Source of the DNA: Amyloporia xantha | Taxonomy: Eukaryota > Basidiomycota > Agaricomycetes > Polyporales > Adustoporiaceae | Length of the DNA stretch: 64,000 nucleotides | Assembly: GCA_036971615.1 (NCBI GenBank) | Contig: JAYKKR010000008.1 | Span: 558,001 to 622,000 of the forward strand | Reading direction: 5' to 3' | Shown: positions 5,239-64,000 of the stretch, piece by piece | Numbering within the stretch: position 1 is the first letter of the stretch | Layout of the letters: every line of letters begins with the position of its first letter | Translations under genes and position numbers: made by a program | The notes under the pieces: model-generated | What the model was told of the DNA's origin: nothing | The model's input: only the letters and a program-made list of their open reading frames with translations | Database searches by the model: none

Positions 5239-5882
5239 TCCATGTTAGCGTCGGTCTGAAGAGGCGAAAGAGGATCGGAGGGATCGACAGAACGAAGACT
5301 TGCATTGCCAGCTGACTCTGTAGCATTCGCCTGGTCCAGACGCTTGCGCGGTTGACGAGCCTTCTCCTTGGCCTTCGCAAACTTGAAGCAAACACTCTGG
5401 GTGTGACCCTTGCGACCGCAGAAGTCGCAGGTAGCATCCGCAGATGCAGCGTTCGCGCTGGCTGAAGAGATCGAAGTCGAAGGGGACGAAGTAGCGGCAA
5501 GAGCGACGGAGGACGATGAAGACGAAGGAAGGGTAAGAGAGGGACGTGCCATGCGATTGAGCTCCTCTGTTTGGAACGCTTCGATGACCTTGGACTTGTC
5601 GAGCTTCTCTGGGAGCATCATGATGAGAGCAGAGGTAAAGCTCGCATACTGCTCGCGCGGAAGCGCACGAATCATCGCCATGGCTTGAAGCTCATTGTCC
5701 AAGTCAGCGAGAGAGAAGGAGGGAGGACGGAGGTTCTGGCAAGTGAGCATAGCCTCCTCGATGCGGTTCGTGAGAGACTGCAAAGACTCCCCTCGTCCTT
5801 GGAGATCGTCAAGAGGGATTCGTACGCGTTGAAGCGTGCACCCGGACGACGAACGACATGGGCAGCCTCCAATGCACTCCAC
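5001..5882 (-). CDS. Copia gag C-terminal part with zinc knuckle and protease site
   Basis: This is the middle frame of the broken Copia gag-pol. It has the second half of gag (IEEAM through a serine-rich stretch), a CCHC zinc knuckle (CDFCGRKGHTQSVC) that binds RNA, and the aspartic protease active site DSGATAHMT followed by RDYSPHR. The first residues before about 5,790 are a shadow of the true gag frame and the last ones after about 5,100 a shadow of pol. Both junctions are consistent with loss of one base. At the first junction the minus strand has four G where a fifth would restore the frame (5789-5792). Confidence 0.85.
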   Translation of the reverse strand: MECIGGCPCRSSSGCTLQRVRIPLDDLQGRGESLQSLTNRIEEAMLTCQNLRPPSFSLADLDNELQAMAMIRALPREQYASFTSALIMMLPEKLDKSKVIEAFQTEELNRMARPSLTLPSSSSSSVALAATSSPSTSISSASANAASADATCDFCGRKGHTQSVCFKFAKAKEKARQPRKRLDQANATESAGNASLRSVDPSDPLSPLQTDANMDWNADSGATAHMTPHRHWLRDYSPHRVAIRLADNQVVYSAGVGTVVFRRLWEVGWSRTSSLPVFYMSLPFVTISCLSFS

Positions 5883-51898: not shown

Positions 51899-52089
51899 CA
51901 TCAGGAAAAACCATATTGGTCCCAGGCTGCTCTGAGACTATCCTAGAGCATCCTAGAGATTTGAAAGATTTTAGAGAACTCAGAGTAGCCAGAGTGCTCT
52001 TAAACTTAGTTGACATGAGAATATTTTCTCAGGTCACTCCAGAGCAGACTCAGAGCAATCTCAGAGCCCTTTCGGAAGGGCCTAAAAGT

Positions 52090-52175
52090 AGTCTCCAATC
52101 ACTTCAAGGCTGATATGATACGCTCTCCAAGCAGTCTACAATCACTTCAAGGGTAATATGATACACTCTCAAAGC
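52090..52175. repeat. 43-bp tandem repeat in the subterminal region
   Basis: Two units, 52090-52132 and 52133-52175, each start AGTCT.CAATCACTTCAAGG. The whole 51,920-52,290 stretch is dense in the words CAGAGC and AGAGTG/CTCTGA, which also recur at 54,950-55,090, as expected for subterminal transposase sites. Confidence 0.85.
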
Positions 52176-52499
52176 CATCATAGATCTGCTAGCAGAGGCT
52201 TTCAGAGTTGCCTTAAAGTTGGCTCAGTGTATTCAACTTTTGCTCTCCGAGCATTTAGAGCGAGCATTTAGAGTGTTCTTAGAGTGATATGAATTATAGG
52301 ATAGAAACTGCAATATATTGATAATGGTGCGACAAGCAATTAATACGAAAGAGACTGAAATCTATGCCAGCAAATCTAGCTGTCAGCGACAGAAGCCTCA
52401 GCAGACGCTTCAAGCTGAGCAAAGTCCAAATCATCAAGGTCCCCATTGTCGGCATCCACATGTAGGTGGGACTTGTTCAAAGAGTTTCTGATCATATAA

Positions 52500-54321
52500 T
52501 TAGCCAAATATAAAATGAACAATCCGCACGTACACAATCTCCATAAACATCTTCTTTTCCAACATGAGAGCCCATTTGGGAGAGTCTCTCTCCAGTTTAG
52601 ACCACGACTGCCAGTGAAAGCTGTATCTAAGCTATCAGTGAGTAAAGATTTCTATCATCGTTGCATAGCTAAAAGGTCACCTTGCAGTCATTGTTTCTTC
52701 ACTGAATGCGACTTTATGATGTACGCCTGTCTCAAACTCCATGATGGCGCATTCAACCTGGAATATACATATCAGTAAACTTATCTGATCAGATGGCACA
52801 GGAAACGTACAGCAGTGACTGTAAGAACAATGATACGGCCAAAGATCTTCTTTTGTGCAACCATCTTCTTATACGCTTGAGCGTCAGCCTTGCCCTTGCC
52901 AAACCACTGTTGACTAATCATGTCTGTGATTATGGGATGGCAAAAGGGCTGCTGACGATCGACCTTCTGATTCTGTAGATGAAACTTAGACGACTGCTCA
53001 ATTGAAGTAGGCAGACATACCTTGAGATCCATGCCTCCAAACATGAAGTTAGAGCGCTCTCTCAGCCAGCGCACCAGCTTCTGAACCTCTATGGCAGACG
53101 TGTTGGTGGAAATCCCATAGTGGCCAGCTATCTTCAACTTGGACTTGCTCTTGAGTTCGCCACGTAAGCCAGTGATGGCATAGCTTGCCTTTGAATAGTC
53201 ATTAGTATAGCTGGCCAAAGAGACGATAACTTGACTCAACATAGGTGATGAGGAGCTCACGGAGATCCACATCGACATTGGCAGCCTCTACCGCATCCTC
53301 CATATTGGCCATACTTCTTCCTGCGACCTGAATAGACTCCCAGCAGAATGTGTCGATATCTCCTGGAAAGCCATTCTGAATAGCGATGGCCTCACGCGTA
53401 CAAGCCTTGGCCAAATTGGCCAGGCTACGTATGTCAGAAGGAAAGTCCGTCAATACCACTTTACTGCTACCACGGGCGTGGCAGTAGGAGAGGAGGCCCT
53501 AGAAGATGCCATAGAGGAAGCACGAGATGTGACAGAATGAGAACGCCTTCCACCTCTAGACTTGTCTTGTTTGGGATCTCGAACTTGAACCTATTGACAG
53601 GTGTTGATAATGTTGTAAGTGCAAAAGAGTGAGTACATACCCCATTGTCCTCATCAAAGGCTAAGTTGTTCGGGTGGTCAGGATCGTCTTCCCCGTAAGG
53701 CTCTATTTCTATCTCATCTTTCTCCTTCTCCTCACTGCTCTGTCTCGCATGATCGGCATCTGAGCCCTCTGTGTATAGTTGAAGCTTCATTCGCAATGAT
53801 ATATGAATGACAGGATACATCACCTTTGTCGGAGATGTCTTGATTACCCAGACTAGCAGCGAGCTGACGTTCTTCATCGTCCAACCTTGCTGAGACTTGC
53901 GTCTTCTGCTTCTTCTTGGCCTGTGAACCGTTTTCATTGTCATTGTCAGTATCTTCCTCTTCTAGAAGTGCAGCATTGCGCTTGCGGATGTCTATGAGGA
54001 CGTCAGCCAATGATTCTCCCATGGCAACAACACCGACATACCTTCATCTTGCGCCTTCAACAACGCAGCAGCTGCTCCGTTGCTTTTGGCTTGAAGCTTC
54101 TTCAAGAGGGCCTTCTCCTTTGCCGTAAAGTTGGCTGTCAGATCTGAAGTTACTTCTGAAGCTGTCGCTTCTTGGACAGTTTTGCTACTGCGGCTGCTGC
54201 TTTGACTCTGAGAAGCTCGTGATTTAGAAGAAGCAGAAGCAGAAGGATTGGGACTAGGAGTAGAGGGAGGATCCTTATCCTGTGTACCGTTTTTACGAGA
54301 GGATCGACGTGTGGCAGTCAT
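52500..54321 (-). CDS. DUF6532-like protein carried by element 1
   Basis: It starts MTATRRSSRKNGTQDKDPPS at 54321, with a Ser/Pro-rich leader and a charged helix (TAKEKALLKKLQAKSNGAAA). An acidic and basic disordered region follows (EEEDTDNDNENGSQAKKKQK, 53,700-54,000). The C-terminal domain spans 53,460 to 52,500: DFPSDIRSLANLAKACTREA, then ITGLRGELKSKSKLKIAGHY, HPIITDMISQQWFGKGKAD and, after a short intron, VECAIMEFETGVHHKVAFSE. This layout and motif order match the DUF6532 domain of agaricomycete proteins as I recall it. The stop is at 52500. Several short introns are evident. The gene follows the dioxygenase by only 74 bp on the same strand, and the same pair occurs at 63,822/63,897. Function unknown; the link suggests a role with the transposon, perhaps DNA or chromatin binding. 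Confidence 0.68.
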
Positions 54322-54369
54322 TGTGACAGACAGGGTGAGAAGTGTCGCCAACAAGCGCCATGACATTCC

Positions 54370-54393
54370 ATTTGTTTGTGCGCACAAACAAAT
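54370..54393. repeat. 24-bp perfect palindrome between dioxygenase and DUF6532-like genes
   Basis: ATTTGTTTGTGC followed by its exact reverse complement. The identical palindrome is at 63825-63848 in the same position in the other copy. It could be a 3'-end signal, hairpin terminator or protein-binding site. Confidence 0.9.
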
Positions 54394-54395
54394 CA

Positions 54396-54930
54396 CTACA
54401 AATTCGACAAACGCCAACTCAAATGTAAAGACGACCTCATATCCTTATGCTCCATCCAACCACTCATGTTCTCACTGTACTTGACTCCAGCTCCGTCTGA
54501 GTGAAGAACCATGGATGCCCTACAGCCCTTAAAATGCAAATTGAAGTGAGTGAGACGCTTTGAGAGAAATACCACCAAATCGCCATTCTGCAAAGGCAAA
54601 ACAAGTCCCGCTTCAACCAAACAGAGCTCTCCACCTTCAAAATCTCCAATGGGAAGGACAAGGCAGGCTTCCAGATCTTTCACATCTCTGTGAGCATTGG
54701 TCGCCACATTGATGTTGAGGACAAATCCACTGAAAGGATGGCATGGAGAGACCTCGCGTCCTGGCAGAAATTCAACAAAAGCCTCCAGTGACTTGCAAAT
54801 CCCTGGGAGACGTCTCTCAAGCTAATGCCAATGGCTAAGTACTCAATATATCAGAAAGGAGAAGCAAGCAACACACCTTCATACGTATCCACTCAAAAAA
54901 TTCTTGGAATGAGTTACAGAGATTGTCGTA
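54396..54930 (-). CDS. 3' exons of a TET/JBP-like 2OG-Fe(II) dioxygenase, truncated by insertion
   Basis: The last exon of the dioxygenase is intact here: PGICKSLEAFVEFLPGREVS, then FVLNINVATNAHRDVKD with the iron-binding H-x-D (HRD), GDFEGGELCLVEAGLVLPL, NGDLVVFLSKRLTHFNLHF with the distal His, and CRASMVLHSD with the Arg expected to hold 2-oxoglutarate. The stop is at 54396. One upstream exon (around 54,890-54,930) is present, and all earlier exons are missing because element 2 starts at 54,931. Compared with the plus-strand copy, this one has two additional bases at GAAGCGGGAC, which keep the frame open. The family is known to oxidise methylated pyrimidines in DNA. Assignment is from motif order only; other 2OG-Fe(II) families are possible. 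Confidence 0.72.
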
Positions 54931-55118
54931 CATCAGGAAAAACACTTTTTCTCTAGGGTACTCTAGATTACTCTCAGATAATGCGGATTTCTCAGAGCAC
55001 ATAAGGTTAGCTCAGAGCAATTGCGAGTAGCCTCAGTCACTCTCATGTGCTCTGGGAGGTATGCGCACTTCTATAACTGCTCTGAGGGTCTCTCACGGTC
55101 TTACAAAGCAGGATATTA

Positions 55119-58100
55119 TTACCAGATGGTTTTGTATGTATACAAAGACGTCCAACTATTCAAAAAAAAGCTAGAAGACGTATCTAAGACATTTTCCTTT
55201 GTCAAGTCGGGTTGAGCCTTATTACCATAGTTTGGAATCAACATACAGCTCTGACGGATACTGGTGAGAGGAATAATTGCACCCGCAGGAGATCCATCTG
55301 GTCTAAGCAGCTGTTTCACAACATACATATTGTGAGCAGGCTCTGCAGCCGGTTTCAGATTAGTATACCATTCCACATAGGCCAGCGGACATTTGGGCCA
55401 AAACGATGGTGCATTTGCATTGTCCAGATGTTCTGGCAATTTGAAAATAACTCGAAGCCGTCCAATACGTGTTCCTTTAAAGCTTGATTAGAATCGGTTA
55501 ATATCAATGATGTATATGTCTCACCTTCTAGCCCTGTTGATTCGGCATCTTCATTGTGTAAAATGACAGCCGTATCAAAACGTCCAGCATTTTGACTGGT
55601 GGATGGAACTGCCTTGAGGACATCACATTCCTCTTCTCCGTCTTCAAGATTAGGAGGATGAAATTTGAGAGTGTGGTAGATGTCGAGGCGATCAAATGGA
55701 AGACTGTGTAGAATCGCCTTTCTGTTGGAAATAGAATGCTGTAGCAAGGAATTGAGATACTCTTTGAGGCGGAGTGAGAAACCTGGAGCATGGTGTTGAT
55801 GCTCTATATGCGCAATAGGTTTCCTGGACTGAGTGGGGAATTTCGGCAGAGAAATAGCCAGTCCACTCCCTTTAGACTTCAAAGCGGTTTGGCGGGCATC
55901 TGAAGGTGGTTGCAAAGACTCCTTCCAGGTGATGAAGTTCTGGAATGCGGCCATCTTTTCCTGGCGAGACAGCCAGAGAGTCATTTGAGGGAATTCGTCT
56001 CTGTGATTGGAAGCGCGCCAGCCCTCCTTCGCAAAGTCAATATGCAGACGTTCGAACATTTCTGTGTTGTAATTGTCGGTTGTGCCCAGCATGCGAATCG
56101 ACTGAATATAGTGCATGAGAGAATGGAACTTGGGGATGTTCATGTCTTCGCGTACGCCGGTGTCGATGAAATAGGACTTGTTTTTTTGAAACGTGTCCAA
56201 CGCGTCTTGCAAATAGCCCAGAGTAATGTCGTCGTGTGTGCTGTACTGAGCAAGATAAATGAAGTCCAACAGCGCGCGACAGGCAAGGAGAGCTTTCTTG
56301 GGGAACACTCCGACAAGACATCCCAGCAGAATCTTGGCCATCTGCTTTCGCTCTGTACCAGATATCTGAGATAGTGCCGAAATGCCATTCTTGAAATGGC
56401 GAGCACCATACGCAGGAGGAAGTGAGCGAATACGATAGTCCAATTCTTCAGCGCTCATGATGCGTGTGCACCAATTCACAAGATGCTTGAAGACACCTTG
56501 ATAAAGCTGGTGGAGTACATCGGGGTGATAGACAGGTGAATGTCGGTGTGAGGGAATCCATGCCAGAAAGGTTTGTAAACACTTCCTGAGACGTCTTGCT
56601 CCATGCATATCTTGTGAAACTGAGCCACACTCTCTGTAGCTTTCCTCGCCTCCTGAATGACTTCCAGTGTCCAAGCTTGCGTGCGAAGAGGATGCGCCTT
56701 TGGGTTTCCCAGATCGCTAGCAGGACAGCGACACTTGGGACATGTTCCGTATTTTGAACACGTCACCAAGCATTGCTCTGGGTAGTCGGCAACATAAGCA
56801 GCAATGATGGGAAAGACCTTTCGCGTTGCTCCATCTCCTCCAGTCATTTCGACGCCATGCTTCCCTGCTTCCAACAAGGGCTCCAAAATGACCCGCATCG
56901 ACTCGTGGAACAGGCGTTGATTACGTGCTCGCTGTTCCTGTTGCGTAAGCTTCTCTCTTGTGATTTTGTCCACCGAAAGATACCCCAGCAAGACACATGC
57001 ATGGAGGGAAGGCTTGCGTCGCACAGATTTTGGAAGATTGCCCAGCGTCAGATAGACTGGATAGGCCGACTTGCCTCCAGTGAACTGAGTGAGCTGGGTT
57101 TTGTCGGTAGCGATAATAAGAGGGGCCAACGTAGCCCCAGGGGGTAGCGACTCTGCAAGACAGCTTAAACAAACCAGTTTTGATATATACATACTGCTGA
57201 CTTACCTGGACCGCGTGCCACCAACTACCTGTCCACATCTCATTGTATATCCTATTCTCCCTTGATGCATCGGAGAATACTTTCTTGGGACGATATACGA
57301 TGTATTTTGAGAGCGATGGGTCTCCCCACAAAGAGCGAATGGCAGCTAGAATGTGACGATAACGGATTGTATGAATTTCATGTGGGCGATCTTGAAATGT
57401 GAGGTGCTTGACATGCCATTGGCCAGCCCTATCAGGTATGCTGTCGACTATTTGGTGGAGAGCTCTTGTATTGTCGTAAGAGAGCCCCAGCTTCTCCTTG
57501 ACCTGAATGGACATCAGTCTCTTCGGACTGTTAAACAGAGTTTGTCTCACTTACCCCAGGAATGGATAGTAACCGATTGAATGCGTTGTGACCAGGATTG
57601 TCCTTGACCATCCAATTCGCAATGCGCCAATCGAGTTCGGATGCAAAAGGATGGAAGAAAGATGGCTCCTCTATGTCTTCATCCACGTCCATAGCATCTC
57701 CATCTCCCGCACCGAACAGCTTATGCCACCGCCTATGAAGGTTATCATTCATGCGAATGACCTTCCCCACACTCCCATCCTCATCCTCCACCCGTGTATC
57801 ATCATCGTCGTCGAGTGCACGATGTTGGACCTGGTGATTATGTGCCACGGTGGAAGGCCCTGGTCCTGCCTCCCAATCCCGTATTCATGAGGCGGAGGGA
57901 GATTCTCGATGGGAATGAAATGGAAAGGCTCGCGGTCCCTGCCCTCATCGAAGATGTCATCCAAATCTTCTTCATCGGAAGATTGCTCTCCAGGGGTCTG
58001 CACATCTTCAAGAGCCTCTATATCGCCTCCTTCCCCTTCAAGATCCAAGGGGCCCAGGTCGGCCAGTTTGCCTCGACGATACCAAGCACAAGATTGGGCC

Positions 58101-58186
58101 CGCGACATGTGCATGTTGCACGATTTTCTGGTGGCAAAGCTGCGCCCACAGGCAGGACAGATTCTTTCGTCATCGACAAGGTTCAT
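55119..58186 (-). pseudogene. Plavaka-type transposase, two apparent frameshifts
   Basis: It starts MNLVDDERICPACGRSFATR at 58186, a zinc finger (C-x2-C...H...C) typical of these proteins, then an acidic linker, GPGPSTVAHN, GKVIRMNDNLHRRW and DWRIANWMVKD. Introns 57503-57554, 57153-57205 and 55483-55524 are in phase. The core has MWTGSWWHAVQ, IIATDKTQLTQFTGGKSAYP, MTGGDGATRKVFPIIAAY, CPKCRCPASDLG, then DVLHQLYQGVFKHLVNWC, MNIPKFHSLMHYIQSIRMLG and FERLHIDFAKEGWR. The C-terminus has LRVIFKLPEHLDN, CPLAYVEWYTNL and IIPLTSIRQSC. Two frames break: near 57,860-57,890 and at 56,522-56,525, where the minus strand has four C and a fifth would restore ITPDVLHQ. It would cut and paste the element at its CATCAGG ends. 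Confidence 0.85.
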
Positions 58187-58189
58187 TGT

Positions 58190-60433
58190 GGATGAAGATC
58201 TTCAATCAGGCAGATGAAGGCGCACAGAGTGGATGGGCACAAACATGATAACATTGCCTATACACCGCAACTAGATTACGTAATCTAGTCTAGAGCTAGT
58301 GATTGACATGCATGAGTGAGCGAACAAACCATGAATTGAAACAAGCGTAGAGGAGAGAACTTCAAGGACGGAACATTGTCGGCGGGAGGAGAGGGCATCA
58401 ATGTGAAGAGAAGAGCGAGTCGGCGATGCAACAGAGTCGGCGGGACGAGAGGCGGGCGAGAGCACGTCGGCGAGCAGCGTCCAAGAGCAAGATCTTCGGG
58501 TCGCGAGAGGCGTAACCGCCCGATGCAGCCCATTCGCACGATTTTCGACGCGGAAGACGACGAGCATGCCGAGACCGCCAGATGGGCGAACAATGACCAC
58601 CGCCACAGCCCCCAGCCCTCATACCCCCAGTCGGCCGGTTCGGAGCGCACGTTGTTCGCACAGCGCTCGCCCAGGCATTCGGACAAGACGCTGCATGAGA
58701 TCAGTGTCGGGGCAGGGTGGGGAGTCGGCGCGAGCGAGAGCGGGGGCAGCGCAGACCCTCTCCCTCTTTGCTCGCCCTCTCTCCCTTCTCCCTCCCTCCC
58801 CTCTCCCCTCTTCGTGAGCGACGGTGAGCGCTGTTCGCTGCGAGAACGTTTGTCGGGCGAGAACGTTCGTCGGGCGAGAACGTTTGTCGGGCGCGAACGT
58901 TTGTCGGGCGCGAACGTCGGCGGGGCACGCATGGCGGTGTGGCGAGAACGGAGCGATGAGAATGGCGGGCGCGATCGGCTGTGTGGCAAGAGGACGTCGG
59001 CCGCGCAGGTGGGTTGGGCGAGGGTCGGGGAAACCATGGCGGTGTGGCGAGAACGGGGCGATGAGGTCGTCGGGCGCGATTGGCTGTGTGGCGAGAAAGT
59101 GAAGAGCAGTCGGCGGGGCGCAAACATTGGTCGGGCGCAAACGTCGGCAGGACAAGAGGACGTCAGCGGGGCGCGAAGAGCGCAGCGGCAGAGCGAGATG
59201 AGGTTGGCGGGAGGAGACCCCGCCAGCGCGTACAAGCATGAGGCTGTGGTGCGAGAAGCGGGGGAGGAAGGACCTGGAGACTCGGATGTGTTCTCTCTCT
59301 TCTCTTCTCCTCTCCTCTCCTCTCCTTCTCCCAATTTCCTCCTGCTCTCTCCCTGATCCCTTCTCCCTCCCCTCTTGGTAAGTGACGGTGAGCGATGCCT
59401 GCCGCGAGAATGTCGATGCGAAAGGCCGTTGGTGCGAGAGGACGTCGGCGGGGCACGATCGACGGCGGGGCGAGATCGACGGCAGGGCGAGAACAGCGGT
59501 GGGGCGAGAACGGCGGTGGGGCGAGAACGGCGAGAGGACGTCGGCGGGGTGCAAAAGGCTGTGTGGCAAAGAAAGCAGCGGGAGGGCGCGAAGAGAGCAG
59601 CGGGGGGCGCGAAGAGAGCAGCAGGGGTGGCGAGAACGTCGTTGGTGCGAGACGACGTCGGCGGGGCACGATCGACGGCGGGGCGAGATCGACGGTGGGA
59701 CGAGATCGACGGCGGGGCGAGAACGGCGGCAGGGCGAGAACAGCTGTGTGGCAATGACAGCAGCGTGCGCGGCTCCCACACAGTGCTGTCCAGCAGGCGT
59801 TGGTGGGGCGAGGTTGCATCAGCGGGGAGCGAACGTCGGCAGTTCGAGAATGTCGGCAGTGCGAGACTGTTGGCGGAGAGCGAAGGTCGTAGGAGAGCGA
59901 AGGTCGTAGGAGCGGCGGGGAGTAGCGGTGCGAGGAGAATGATCAGGTCGAGCCAGAGCGTCGGGGAGGAGCCAGCGCAAGCTGCTTAGGACAGCGGCCG
60001 CGGCGGGGGCTGAGCAGGAACAGCGGCGCAAAGCGAAGTCGTGGGCGGGGCGGGTGACAACCGCGCCATCGCAAGGTCTGGCAGGGGGTGAGTACAGCGG
60101 GTTTGCTAGAAGCAGCACAGGGGACGCACCTTTGCTGCTCATACCAACGCTGTTCTAACCACTTTGCCTCAACCTCAGCCGGGTGCGGAGACCGCGTCGG
60201 CGCGGAGAACATCACCAAAGGGGTGAGAACGGAGCCGGGGTGTTGAACTTGAGCATGTCGGCGGGGAGCCCGCGTCGTCGGCAGAGCGTCGAGGACAGCA
60301 GTGGCCAGGAGCAAACTTGAAGGTGAGACGCGTCGGCATGGAGAGTGTCAGTAGTGTAGAGATTAAGTGTCGAAGAGGCCAGAACGGCGGGGACGAGAGG
60401 TAAGGGAGCGCATTGAATTAGCAGCGAGAGACT
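58190..60433. other. CpG-rich spacer between divergent transposase and dioxygenase genes
   Basis: About 2.2 kb, extremely rich in CG dinucleotides and imperfect tandem repeats. At 58,850-58,930 a roughly 19-bp unit (CGTTTGTCGGGCGCGAA and variants) repeats about five times. About 75 bp starting GTTGGTGCGAGAGGACGTCG near 59,427 recurs near 59,647, and CCTCTCCTCTCC-type runs are at 59,310-59,330. Long frames exist on both strands only because stop codons are rare in such sequence. The probable role is a shared promoter region for the two divergent genes. The palindromic ACTAGATTACGTAATCTAGTC at 58,270-58,290 lies near the transposase side. Confidence 0.55.
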
Positions 60434-60491
60434 GCCTTCCCAAAATGGGTGCCAGTTTGTCGCGACAAACTGGCACCCATTTTGGGAAGGC
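60434..60491. repeat. 58-bp perfect palindrome upstream of the dioxygenase gene
   Basis: 29 bases starting GCCTTCCCAAAATGGGTGCC are followed with no spacer by their exact reverse complement, with centre TCGCGA at 60460-60465. It lies 84 bp before the ATG at 60575. Perfect spacer-free palindromes of this size are unstable, so it is either young, selected, or an assembly foldback. Confidence 0.93.
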
Positions 60492-60574
60492 CTTTGCGCG
60501 TTCGAAGTTCACTTTGCGCATTCGACGTTCACCTGCGCCGTCGTCGTTCCTCGCGTTTTCACCTACTCTCTGGC

Positions 60575-63500
60575 ATGGCTGGCGGCACTCCAGATTCGTT
60601 GGAGCTCTCGGACTCAGACCTTGCTGTTCTCATTGAGTTTGTAAGGTCTCAGCCTCCGCACACTCTCCCACCTGCTGTGCTTACTGTCCTCAACAACCTC
60701 GATGCTGCCACCTCGACTTCTCTGTCTGGAGTGACTCCCTTGGCTACCCCTAATGTCTCAGCTGTGTCCAACAGCCATGCTTACTTGACTCCGGCCCCAT
60801 CCCGTGGCCCCAGTGTGGCTCCTGAACAGATAGAGGCCAATAGGGGGACTCAGACTGTCGTAAGTTCCACAGCCGATTTCTCCTCATTTCGACTGACTAC
60901 ATCTGTATTCTATGCTACTAGGAGCAAGGGCCTCCCCTCCCTGTAGAAGCCAGGGATGAAGAGGTCGCTAGGATGCATTCTAGCACTCCCTCTCAGACTG
61001 TCGGCGTAAGTTCCACAGCCGATTTCTCCTCATTTCGACTGACTACATCTGTATTCTATGCTACTAGGAGCAAGGGCCTCCCTTCCTGTAGAAGCCAGGG
61101 ATGAAGAGGTCGCTAGGATGCGCTCTAGCACTCCCTCTCGCACACGCTCGCACCGGCGTTGCGGGTGATCCGGATGAGCCTCCTCCGAAGAGGCACAAAC
61201 CTCGCAAGTCGAATTGTGACACTCGTGGAGGGACACCATTGCCAATCAACCCACGGGGGTTCCTTAGTGGTTCCTCCTGATGATGAGGCGCGTGTGGCTT
61301 GGGAGGGTGGCAGGTTCTGGAGGATAAGTCCCCAGCCTGCTGTTGCGGGAGGCGCGGCAGGTGACCAAGCCCAGGAGCTGATGTCTCATCTGGCACAGGG
61401 CTCCAAGAGCAACGTCCAGAGTGAGGACTGTCTTCAGTGGATGTTGAGTCTGAAAAACATGGTGGAGGGCGTCGGGGCCTCCACGCAGGCAATTCTGTCT
61501 ATGTTACTAACGACCTGTTTTCCTTGGTCAAACGCGTCAACTATTTTGAGGGAATGAGTACTGGCCTATCATTCCTGGGACTAGTTTCCAAGATTGAGCT
61601 TGCGGCTAAGGTGCATAGGTGTGTTCTTAATTTCTATCACCCTCCATGAGATTTGACGACATTTTCTATTGATCTAGCATCACAGCACATGATCCCAAGA
61701 TGACGACACAGCGATTGTGGATGGTCAAGGTCAAGGGGCATCCCAGCGCGCCGTCAAAGTGGACGTTTGGCAATTGGGTTGCTCAGGGCTACAAGTTCGC
61801 TGCTTTGGCAAGCGCAGGTATGTCGTGTATCTACAATATCTCATTTTCACTGATTGCAGCTCTTTTCCAGGATCTATTTATCTTCTCATGGTCATAGCGG
61901 CTAGAGATATGCCCAGAGACCTAGGGCGAACAAAGGATGAGGTAATCCAAGCCATTTGCAATGCACTCCGCTTTCCCCAAGAGCGTAAGCCACTCATCTA
62001 TTTGTCTTTCACATTATCTCGCGCTAAGTCATGGATCAGATACCAACATAGGCAAAGACATCATTACGCGCATAATTCCTCTCATTTCTTTTCTGAGGAC
62101 TTATATTCCCATACGCATCTCAGTCCTCTTCTCCAGTGCCATTCTGCAAGAGTGTGGCCTGCCGACAGAGATAGACTGCAGAGATCTTGACAAGTCAGAC
62201 GCATTCTTCGATCAGATTAAAGAGAGGTATGTGCTCTTTACTCAGAACAGCCCTGTCGTCTGATTTCACATACAGAACCTTTGCCGGACTGACGCGAAAT
62301 CGTGCTCTATGGGCATCATGCCTAGTTCCTGTGAACGACAATGCTGAGGTATTGTCTCTTCATATCATGGGTAGCAATCTACTCCATGCCACCGCCTCCT
62401 CCACGTCTCGTCCACCTACGCCTCTGAGCGACTCGGAGGATGAGAAAGACCACCACGATGAGTTTTCTGATAGCCATGATGATCTTTTTGTGCCCACTCT
62501 TGCAGTCGCGAACCAGTTCCAAAATCCTGACTCCGCATCGCCCAACTATCATGTTCTGCGCACTCTGTTTGATTTCGATGCTCCTGCTAATCGTCATATT
62601 CCTTATCCTACTGGCAACCCTGAGGCGCATGGTCAGTGGACAAACAAAGAGCGCCTTGGTGCAAGTCAGGCATATATTGTGCATACTCTGGATGACGCCG
62701 CGCAATCAGTGAGTAGCTCATACATTCTTCTATTTTCTTTCTCAACATGATACGTCTTGCAGATCAATGACCTGTATTCTTCTGATGGGGTCAAAACCTT
62801 TGCTGAAGACTATGTGCGTTTGGAGCATGACATGTTGCAAGAGTAAGTCATTCGCCGCATTCTTGTTCATTATCTCACCATCTACTTAGGCAAGAGATTG
62901 ACATACGAGACAAGAAGGACAAATTGATGGCTTTCATAGCGTGCGACATGCCTCAAAACATGCGTGAAAGTTTGATGCGCAACATTCGCACCGCACTTGC
63001 TGTCGGTACAAAGGAAGGTTATTCCTTGCAGGATATGGACAGTTCCCATCAGGATGGGAGTGCAGAGAGGCGGTTTCCTTGCCTTCATTTCTCCTGGTAT
63101 GCGCGCAACATCACAAGGGTTTGTCTTTCCTATATGCATTACATGTTGTAAGATTGATTATTTCTACAGGGTGACGATGCTCCAAAAGATACACATCCCC
63201 TGCATCTGCGTCGTGCAAATGCCTCTCACACAAATCACCAACAATTTGGTGCTTATGTTTCCAAGGAGCTTCTATGCAATCAAGCTGAGTACGACAATCT
63301 CTGTAACTCATTCCAAGAATTTTTTGAGTGGATACGTATGAAGGTGTGTTGCTTGCTTCTCCTTTCTGATATATTGAGTACTTAGCCATTGGCATTAGCT
63401 TGAGAGACGTCTCCCAGGGATTTGCAAGTCACTGGAGGCTTTTGTTGAATTTCTGCCAGGACGCGAGGTCTCTCCATGCCATCCTTTCAGTGGATTTGTC

Positions 63501-63822
63501 CTCAACATCAATGTGGCGACCAATGCTCACAGAGATGTGAAAGATCTGGAAGCCTGCCTTGTCCTTCCCATTGGAGATTTTGAAGGTGGAGAGCTCTGTT
63601 TGGTTGAAGGGACTTGTTTTGCCTTTGCAGAATGGCGATTTGGTGGTATTTCTCTCAAAGCGTCTCACTCACTTCAATTTGCATTTTAAGGGCTGTAGGG
63701 CATCCATGGTTCTTCACTCAGACGGAGCTGGAGTCAAGTACAGTGAGAACATGAGTGGTTGGATGGAGCATAAGGATATGAGGTCGTCTTTACATTTGAG
63801 TTGGCGTTTGTCGAATTTGTAG
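60575..63822 (+). pseudogene. TET/JBP-like 2OG-Fe(II) dioxygenase gene of element 2, frameshifted
   Basis: It starts MAGGTPDSLELSDSDLAVLI at 60575; exon 1 ends 60859 (donor GTAAGT). Many short exons follow, coding among others DEPPPKRHKPRKSN, a helical LQWMLSLKNMVEGVGASTQA, RLWMVKVKGHPSAPSKWTFG, MPRDLGRTKDEVIQAICNAL, ILQECGLPTEIDCRDLDKSD, an acidic DSEDEKDHHDEFSD and IDIRDKKDKLMAFIACDMPQ. The catalytic exon (from about 63,399) has the HRD iron motif in VATNAHRDVKD, FEGGELCLVE, LTHFNLHF and CRASMVLHSD, ending at 63822. Two bases are missing at about 63,609-63,611 relative to the inverted copy, which breaks the frame inside the catalytic core, and an exon-intron duplication near 60,860-61,140 also disturbs the frame. 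The N-terminal 800 or so residues match no family I know. The predicted role is oxidation of methylcytosine in the nucleus. Confidence 0.7.
60860..61138 (+). repeat. Tandem duplication of an intron and exon in the dioxygenase gene
   Basis: The unit beginning GTAAGTTCCACAGCCGATTT (60860) recurs at 61006 with the same intron, acceptor CTACTAG and exon start GAGCAAGGGCCTCCC. The second exon copy is one base shorter (CCCTTCC against CCCCTCCC), which shifts its frame. It is either an exon duplication used as alternative splicing or a lesion. Confidence 0.8.
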
Positions 63823-63824
63823 TG

Positions 63825-63848
63825 ATTTGTTTGTGCGCACAAACAAAT
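63825..63848. repeat. 24-bp perfect palindrome, second copy
   Basis: Same sequence as 54370-54393, starting 3 bp after the dioxygenase stop and ending about 48 bp before the DUF6532-like start. Confidence 0.9.
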
Positions 63849-63896
63849 GGAATGTCATGGCGCTTGTTGGCGACACTTCTCACCCTGTCTGTCACA

Positions 63897-64000
63897 ATGA
63901 CTGCCACACGTCGATCCTCTCGTAAAAACGGTACACAGGATAAGGATCCTCCCTCTACTCCTAGTCCCAATCCTTCTGCTTCTGCTTCTTCTAAATCACG
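63897..64000 (+). CDS. Start of the DUF6532-like gene of element 2 (cut by window edge)
   Basis: The ATG at 63897 begins MTATRRSSRKNGTQDKDPPS, identical to the minus-strand gene starting at 54321. Only the first 34 codons (Ser/Pro-rich leader) are in the window. It follows the dioxygenase gene head to tail with 74 bp between stop and start, as in element 1. Confidence 0.7.
   Translation, partial: MTATRRSSRKNGTQDKDPPSTPSPNPSASASSKS

Follow-up and report, generated by a model that had tools for sequence, protein, structure and literature searches.

Near the right edge of a 64,000-bp stretch of the Amyloporia xantha genome (hereafter the window; positions 558001–622000 of contig JAYKKR010000008.1, designated C59), a transposase gene, a gene with dioxygenase motifs and a gene encoding a domain of unknown function lie side by side, which raises the question of whether they form one mobile element and, if so, what a dioxygenase does there. 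All three belong to a complete PlavakaB-type DNA transposon of 11,390 bp, element B, which spans 54931–66320 (54931–64000 in the window, plus strand; features past 64000 were read from the neighboring contig sequence) and contains a Plavaka transposase gene on the minus strand followed by a TET-family dioxygenase gene and a DUF6532 gene on the plus strand. On the evidence given below, element B is likely to represent a recently active, autonomous-type PlavakaB transposon that has DUF6532 as an ancestral second gene and an acquired TET enzyme countering host methylation.

Both ends of element B carry a 13-bp terminal inverted repeat (CATCAGGAAAAAC), with the left copy at 54931–54943 (plus strand) and the right copy ending at 66320; the initial annotation had recognized the terminus at 54931, and its partner is located outside the window. 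The target-site duplication is TA (left copy 54929–54930, right copy 66321–66322; flanks GTCGTA and TACTCA), and the sequence of uninterrupted copies runs through this site. The analysis of complete elements covered ten of 32 genome matches (c16, c21, c23, c27, c32, c45, c55, B, A, and C3_469), while c60, c37, and other partial or diverged loci were excluded from the element counts. Element B, A, c16, C3_469, and the six others share CATCA...TGATG termini (CATCAGGAAAAAC...GTTTTTCCTGATG), and nine of the ten are flanked by a 2-bp duplication, C3_469 being without one. Element B was inserted, in inverted orientation, into element A, a member of the same family that measures 11,399 bp after removal of B and has a TC duplication. 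The 3' part of A occupies 51899–54930 (minus strand), and the rest of A spans 66323–74689. Its DUF6532 gene lies at 52376–54321 (minus strand; lower limit approximate, profile match at 52802–53212), and its uninterrupted dioxygenase catalytic exon at 54396–54821 (minus strand) contains the HRD, LTHFN, and CRAS motifs in one frame. Because of this insertion, 54218–54931 and 63289–64000 form an inverted repeat of ~0.7 kb, overlooked in the initial annotation, that is perfect except for a 2-bp deletion near 63608.

Eight complete near-identical copies (B, A, c21, c23, c27, c32, c45, and c55; 11,182–11,402 bp) are separated by 3 to 16 substitutions in pairwise comparisons, and their identity of 99.86–99.97% implies that the element moved recently. 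Small indels are more numerous among these copies than private substitutions, affect at least one modelled gene in all eight, and in several cases recur at the same positions, by eye in homopolymer runs. Given this recurrence, frameshifts found in a single copy, among them the 2-bp deletion of element B near 63608, may be assembly errors. The left-end 150 bp gave at least 40 genome matches (the best 40 of 92 candidates), comprising 16 full-length matches at ≥95% identity, one partial match, and 23 matches at 76–83%. The latter are similar to the first 88–127 bp of the element (for example, C60:136335 and C55:1859000) and may be short non-autonomous derivatives or belong to other Plavaka families.

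The transposase gene (55119–58187, minus strand) has about four exons, with limits taken from a home-made model. A profile search matched its product to Plavaka (PF18759, E 5.9e-78), as the initial annotation had proposed from motifs, and its N terminus contains a C2H2-like zinc finger with a weak Pfam match (E 0.0092). The assignment to PlavakaB is based on this domain, the CATCA...TGATG ends, and the length of the target-site duplication.

The dioxygenase gene (60575–63822, plus strand) is a multi-exon gene with a last catalytic exon at ~63399–63822 and uncertain N-terminal exons. Its HRD, LTHFN, and CRAS motifs had been read as those of a 2-oxoglutarate (2OG)-Fe(II) dioxygenase of the TET/JBP type. 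The last exon does match Tet_JBP (PF12851, E 2.1e-7), although its 30.7 bits lie under the curated cut-off of 34.9, but the plus-strand copy in the window does not have the motifs together: the 2-bp deletion near 63608 places HRD in one frame and LTHFN and CRAS in another. This deletion is missing in nine of ten other copies checked (c21, c23, c27, c32, c45, c55, A, c60, and c37), and the search string gave no match in c16. Protein searches revealed at least 28 homologous proteins among the matches listed, all from fungal genera of the Agaricomycetes (e.g., Sparassis, Trametes, Fomitopsis, Serpula, Suillus, Lentinula, Hericium, and Dentipellis); none of the 28 listed is known to be from Pucciniomycetes, the class of the PU type of TET in Kojima 2025. 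PF12851 was matched at an E value of up to 1 by nine of the ten members of a homologue alignment (A2), and homologue P0018 reaches 35.0 bits over profile positions 9–161, whereas searches of PDB sequences with P0001 or the A2 profile gave no TET match. An AlphaFold model of homologue P0004 built with 29 sequences reached a mean predicted local distance difference test (pLDDT) score of 82.8, and a model built with nine sequences (pLDDT 41.7) was set aside. The double-stranded beta-helix fold of the P0004 model is closest to TET structures: its best structural matches are CcTET (the top match, Foldseek E 1.8e-10), NgTET, TET2, and CMD1, the first three being closer than CMD1 and all four ranking ahead of AlkBH3 and FTO. 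On the basis of the fold predicted for this homologue and of a profile match under the cut-off, the dioxygenase is placed in the TET family, and it probably oxidizes methylated DNA.

Iyer and colleagues (2014) reportedly noted the proximity of Plavaka and TET/JBP genes in Serpula, Fomitopsis, and Trametes. As cited in Kojima 2025 (PMC12730594; all statements on this article refer to the portion of its text that was available), that association was implied and complete elements were not shown, whereas the present analysis gives a complete element with its ends, duplications, and copy number. Kojima 2025 describes TET-carrying PlavakaB transposons in Agaricus bisporus and Gymnopus confluens, counts Plavaka-borne TET enzymes as PE type, with HxE, and found no TET-carrying Plavaka in Serpula lacrymans, Fomitopsis pinicola, or Trametes versicolor; homologues of the element B enzyme are present in these three genera. 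Element B is similar to the published elements in its Plavaka transposase, CATCA...TGATG ends, target duplications (2–3 bp), and internal TET-family gene, but its enzyme has HxD. In the ten rows of A2, on which the statements about residues H+5, H+9, and H+11 are based, HxD is present in all, the distal H in nine of the nine rows that reach that far, and the 2OG arginine in eight of nine, and H+5 Asp, H+9 Cys, and H+11 Val are invariant. When either D or E was permitted, a motif search recovered 23 of the 28 homologues (five unmatched), in every case with HxD and never HxE; it demanded Asp at H+5 and a nearby Cys, and provides no evidence on those two residues. The AG type is defined in Kojima 2025 by Gly/Ser at H+5 and Asp at H+11 (Gly331 and Asp337 in CcTET), positions occupied here by Asp and Val, and the PE type by HxE in place of the HxD found here. 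According to these residues, the enzyme is assigned to neither type.

The same genome harbors a second transposon-borne TET system. The enzyme of element B resembles those of the Kyakuja (KDZ) TET-carrying transposons, including CcTET of Coprinopsis cinerea, in being a transposon-borne Agaricomycetes TET with CcTET as its best structural match, but it is associated with another transposase family and is missing the AG residues. PF12851 gave 114 genome matches, of which 79 higher-scoring ones and 29 loci of the element B enzyme family were analyzed for KDZ neighbors. Among the KDZ matches listed (part of 174), element B-type loci had a KDZ transposase within 4 kb in none of 29 cases and within 10 kb in two. 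The AG residues (Ser and Asp) were recovered in five higher-scoring TETs (L043–L047), which served as a positive control. The higher-scoring matches represent a large AG-type expansion, with a KDZ transposase on the opposite strand within 4 kb at 67 or more of the 79 (median offset 2,024 bp).

The third gene begins with an ATG at 63897, 74 bp past the dioxygenase stop codon (63820–63822), and runs on the plus strand through 63897–64000 of the window to ~65843. Its product has a full-domain match to DUF6532 (PF20149, E 1.5e-35, 123.3 bits with a cut-off of 24, residues 253–459), in line with the initial annotation. Pfam gives no function for this domain, and a full-text search led to one paper that names it, among listed domains that include Plavaka and KDZ. 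Genome searches gave 41 DUF6532 rows and 139 Plavaka rows (the best 123 of 192 candidates), reduced by hand and by merging to 32 and 69 loci, respectively. A divergent Plavaka transposase is present within 10 kb upstream in 23 of the 32 DUF6532 loci, compared with 0.24 expected under random placement, and a Tet_JBP match lies 1.62–1.70 kb upstream on the same strand in 16. Four of the 23, loci without TET (L033–L036), have transposase cores ~44–51% identical to that of element B, and each carries a DUF6532 gene. The modelled proteins match PF20149 with E values of 1.7e-32, 1.5e-21, 6.9e-30, and 3.8e-4, the last (L036) below the cut-off, although the genome search gives the same locus 59.2 bits, above it. 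No dioxygenase match was found in these four loci (best E 0.27, compared with 6.6e-95 or better in two TET-carrying controls). Two of them have a right terminal repeat ~300 bp past DUF6532, one has a left repeat, and one has neither. In Heliocybe, Gymnopilus, and Dentipellis, dioxygenase and DUF6532 occur within a single protein model, and in Suillus lakei P0023 the DUF6532 domain is recognized by Pfam and the dioxygenase motifs from homology.

From this distribution, DUF6532 looks like a core PlavakaB gene, with TET as the addition. The initial annotation had treated the enzyme and DUF6532 together as stable cargo of a Plavaka element: the three genes do share one complete element, but DUF6532 appears to be core rather than cargo. 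As to the suggestion that the triple combination may be undescribed, TET-carrying PlavakaB elements are already known from Kojima 2025 (PMC12730594), although the name DUF6532 has no occurrence in its available text. Full-text literature searches, including the accessible parts of PMC8955403 and PMC9674265 and with subscription papers mostly outside their reach, likewise revealed no title or abstract opening on a Plavaka-DUF6532 gene pair. Provisionally, the new features are an HxD enzyme on Plavaka that is neither AG nor PE, the DUF6532 link, the mosaic structure, and the palindrome described below. Element B thereby adds a TET-carrying Plavaka that is complete, has moved recently, and bears an enzyme class unreported on Plavaka in the available text of that article, and DUF6532 is offered a first role, as a transposon gene.

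Comparison of c27 with the more diverged c16 gave a synonymous divergence (dS) of 0.984 and a nonsynonymous-to-synonymous ratio (omega) of 0.126 for the dioxygenase, a dS of 0.132 and omega of 0.079 for the transposase, and a dS of 0.022 for DUF6532; the dioxygenase is under purifying selection by this measure. Divergence in 250-bp bins is 1–8% in the first 3 kb (one bin at 14%), 21% at 3.0–3.25 kb, 22–58% over 3.25–8.5 kb, 11% at 8.5–8.75 kb, 0–4% over 8.75–11 kb, and 17–21% at the very end. Element c16, located around C16:327482–338810 (L026/L027), is therefore a mosaic with spacer and dioxygenase from another lineage, and the TET gene and its promoter may be exchangeable between elements as a block. 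The eight near copies contain 23 private substitutions: 11 CpG transitions, three other C-to-T changes, six A-to-G changes, and three transversions. The CpG excess among C-to-T changes (P 7e-6, with site numbers from four annotated regions) points to host methylation. The genes have observed/expected (o/e) CpG ratios of 0.75, 0.61, and 0.60; the ratio is 1.16 for the spacer and 0.96 for window positions 1–51000. PF00145 has four exon matches in the genome.

These observations can be assembled into a model in which the DDE transposase would recognize the CATCAGG ends and insert the element with a 2-bp target duplication. The divergent DUF6532, as the ancestral second gene, would likely act as a DNA-binding protein or transposition helper. 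One branch would have acquired a TET-family dioxygenase gene, placed between transposase and DUF6532, whose product most likely oxidizes 5-methylcytosine (5mC) put by the host on CpG sites of the element. Such oxidation would preserve the function of the CpG-rich bidirectional promoter and thereby the continued expression of all three genes, and the TET gene with its promoter could be swapped between elements. Element B is thus a good candidate, from sequence evidence, for a mobile element fighting silencing by host DNA methylation. Several observations weigh against this model. The frameshifts in the transposase and dioxygenase models of element B may be real, and the PF12851 scores of the enzyme family's loci (23–33 bits) fall under the 34.9 cut-off. 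Asp at H+11, required by CcTET for 5mC, is Val here and H+5 is Asp, so that substrate preference may differ from that of CcTET. Nine of the 32 DUF6532 loci are without a divergent Plavaka within 10 kb; five of these have Plavaka at 17–27 kb, only C59:611007 (split element A) being shown as a separated pair, and four have none within 30 kb. The mosaic is known from c16 alone and the CpG footprint from 23 private substitutions. Per site and copy, CpG transitions occur at a rate of 0.00075 in the spacer versus 0.00096–0.00152 in the genes, a non-significant difference (three versus seven events, P 0.30). Finally, no UDG-family glycosylase (PF03167) was detected in a six-frame genome search, which can miss spliced genes, and complete removal of oxidized cytosine is therefore unproven.

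Other explanations of the locus differ in how well they withstand the same data. A palindromic chimera in the assembly, or chance nesting of unrelated elements, might account for the inverted repeat and the gene adjacency, as the repeat is perfect over 0.7 kb apart from the deletion and the assembly shows indel noise. However, the junctions coincide exactly with the terminal repeats and the 2-bp duplication, and the three-gene unit recurs with identical ends in seven more places, each with its own flanking sequence (c21, c23, c27, c32, c45, c55, and c16); an artefact or chance nesting of this kind is extremely improbable. DUF6532 could instead be a gene family of its own that is not part of Plavaka and simply collects in regions rich in transposons. 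This would fit the nine loci without a close Plavaka partner, the fact that recent near-identical copies among the 32 loci are not independent observations, the recovery of both ends in none of the four TET-less loci, and the presence of DUF6532 within 10 kb at four of the 79 higher-scoring (KDZ-type) TET matches. It is nonetheless unlikely in view of the fixed divergent order with Plavaka, the retention of DUF6532 in the four TET-less loci with distant transposase cores, two of which have the right terminal repeat shortly after it, and the control result that Plavaka is found within 10 kb at only three of the 79 higher-scoring TET matches.

The role of the TET gene is open to two further interpretations. 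As passive cargo from the host or another transposon, it would be carried by chance and bring no benefit to the element. The TET-less Plavaka loci indicate that TET is dispensable, all eight near copies have indels in modelled genes (possibly assembly noise), and passive transfer of TET genes between transposons is described in Kojima 2025 (PMC12730594). An omega of 0.126 at a dS of ~1 and the conserved HxD...H core of the homologues argue instead for long-term constraint, and protein models from four other species preserve TET followed by DUF6532, which leaves passive carriage with little probability. Alternatively, the enzyme may write a protective or signalling base, such as stable 5hmC or 5fC, a CMD1-like adduct, or oxidized 6mA, rather than erase methylation. 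This possibility deserves to be taken seriously, although it appears doubtful given that the structural match to CMD1 is less close than those to CcTET, NgTET, and TET2. The coexistence of near-identical copies, TET-less relatives, and KDZ-linked TETs in one genome would allow a direct test of TET self-protection.

The divergent genes of element B are separated by a GC-rich spacer (58188–60574; GC 0.63) with degenerate 17-nt repeats at ~58826–59905. A 58-bp perfect palindrome (60434–60491) precedes the modelled dioxygenase ATG by 83 bp, perfect and at the same distance in the near copies. The corresponding 58 bp of c16, 82 bp before an ATG, have two broken pairs and three compensated changes, and C3_469 has a 40-bp perfect palindrome with a different core sequence, 86 bp before an ATG. 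These upstream palindromes are the longest perfect ones of each element (5601–5632 in c16 and 5737–5776 in C3_469, element coordinates), with arms of 29, 16, and 20 compared with a mean of 7.1 and a maximum of 14 in 60 base shuffles of c27; their RNA folding z-scores range from −9 to −14. The symmetry persists as the sequence diverges, with compensation in three of the five pair changes that separate c16 from the near copies, as would be expected of an RNA hairpin or a co-evolving protein-binding dyad. The palindrome may serve as an operator or an RNA hairpin, or may have arisen as a by-product of template-switch correction. It represents a concrete candidate for self-targeting or self-regulation. 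In a bolder version of the model, a two-gene PlavakaB core (transposase and DUF6532) would have given rise, in one branch, to a self-guided anti-silencing device: DUF6532 or the transposase zinc finger would bind element DNA, including the palindrome, and bring TET to the CpG-rich promoter, TET-plus-promoter cassettes would be swapped, and AG enzymes would be partnered with KDZ and the element B class with Plavaka. This version is speculative and, as a whole, rather unlikely.

Among the four TET-less loci, a palindrome with 12-bp arms occurs twice in one, another has a palindrome with 9-bp arms, and two have none at that limit. No palindrome scoring 12 or more was found in five of six 651-bp stretches of other loci, most of which are missing the gene start, and L053 has a weak one with 15-bp arms. 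The 74-bp gap between dioxygenase and DUF6532 contains a 24-bp perfect palindrome (63825–63848), with a near-perfect counterpart in c16 (11-bp arms and a 2-bp loop). The outer-arm pattern GCCTTCC...GGAAGGC occurs at 20 genome places, compared with three for a backwards control: 12 in loci of this family (C14, C16, C21, C23, C27, C32, C41, C45:99656, C55, C59 twice, and C60) and eight elsewhere, and the arms are therefore not exclusive to the element. At one outside place for which the letters were shown, the interior is not palindromic. Outer-arm stretches of 62 bp outside the family are located at C8:767293, C15:372934, C15:528875, C15:559660, C30:14945, and C31:313775.

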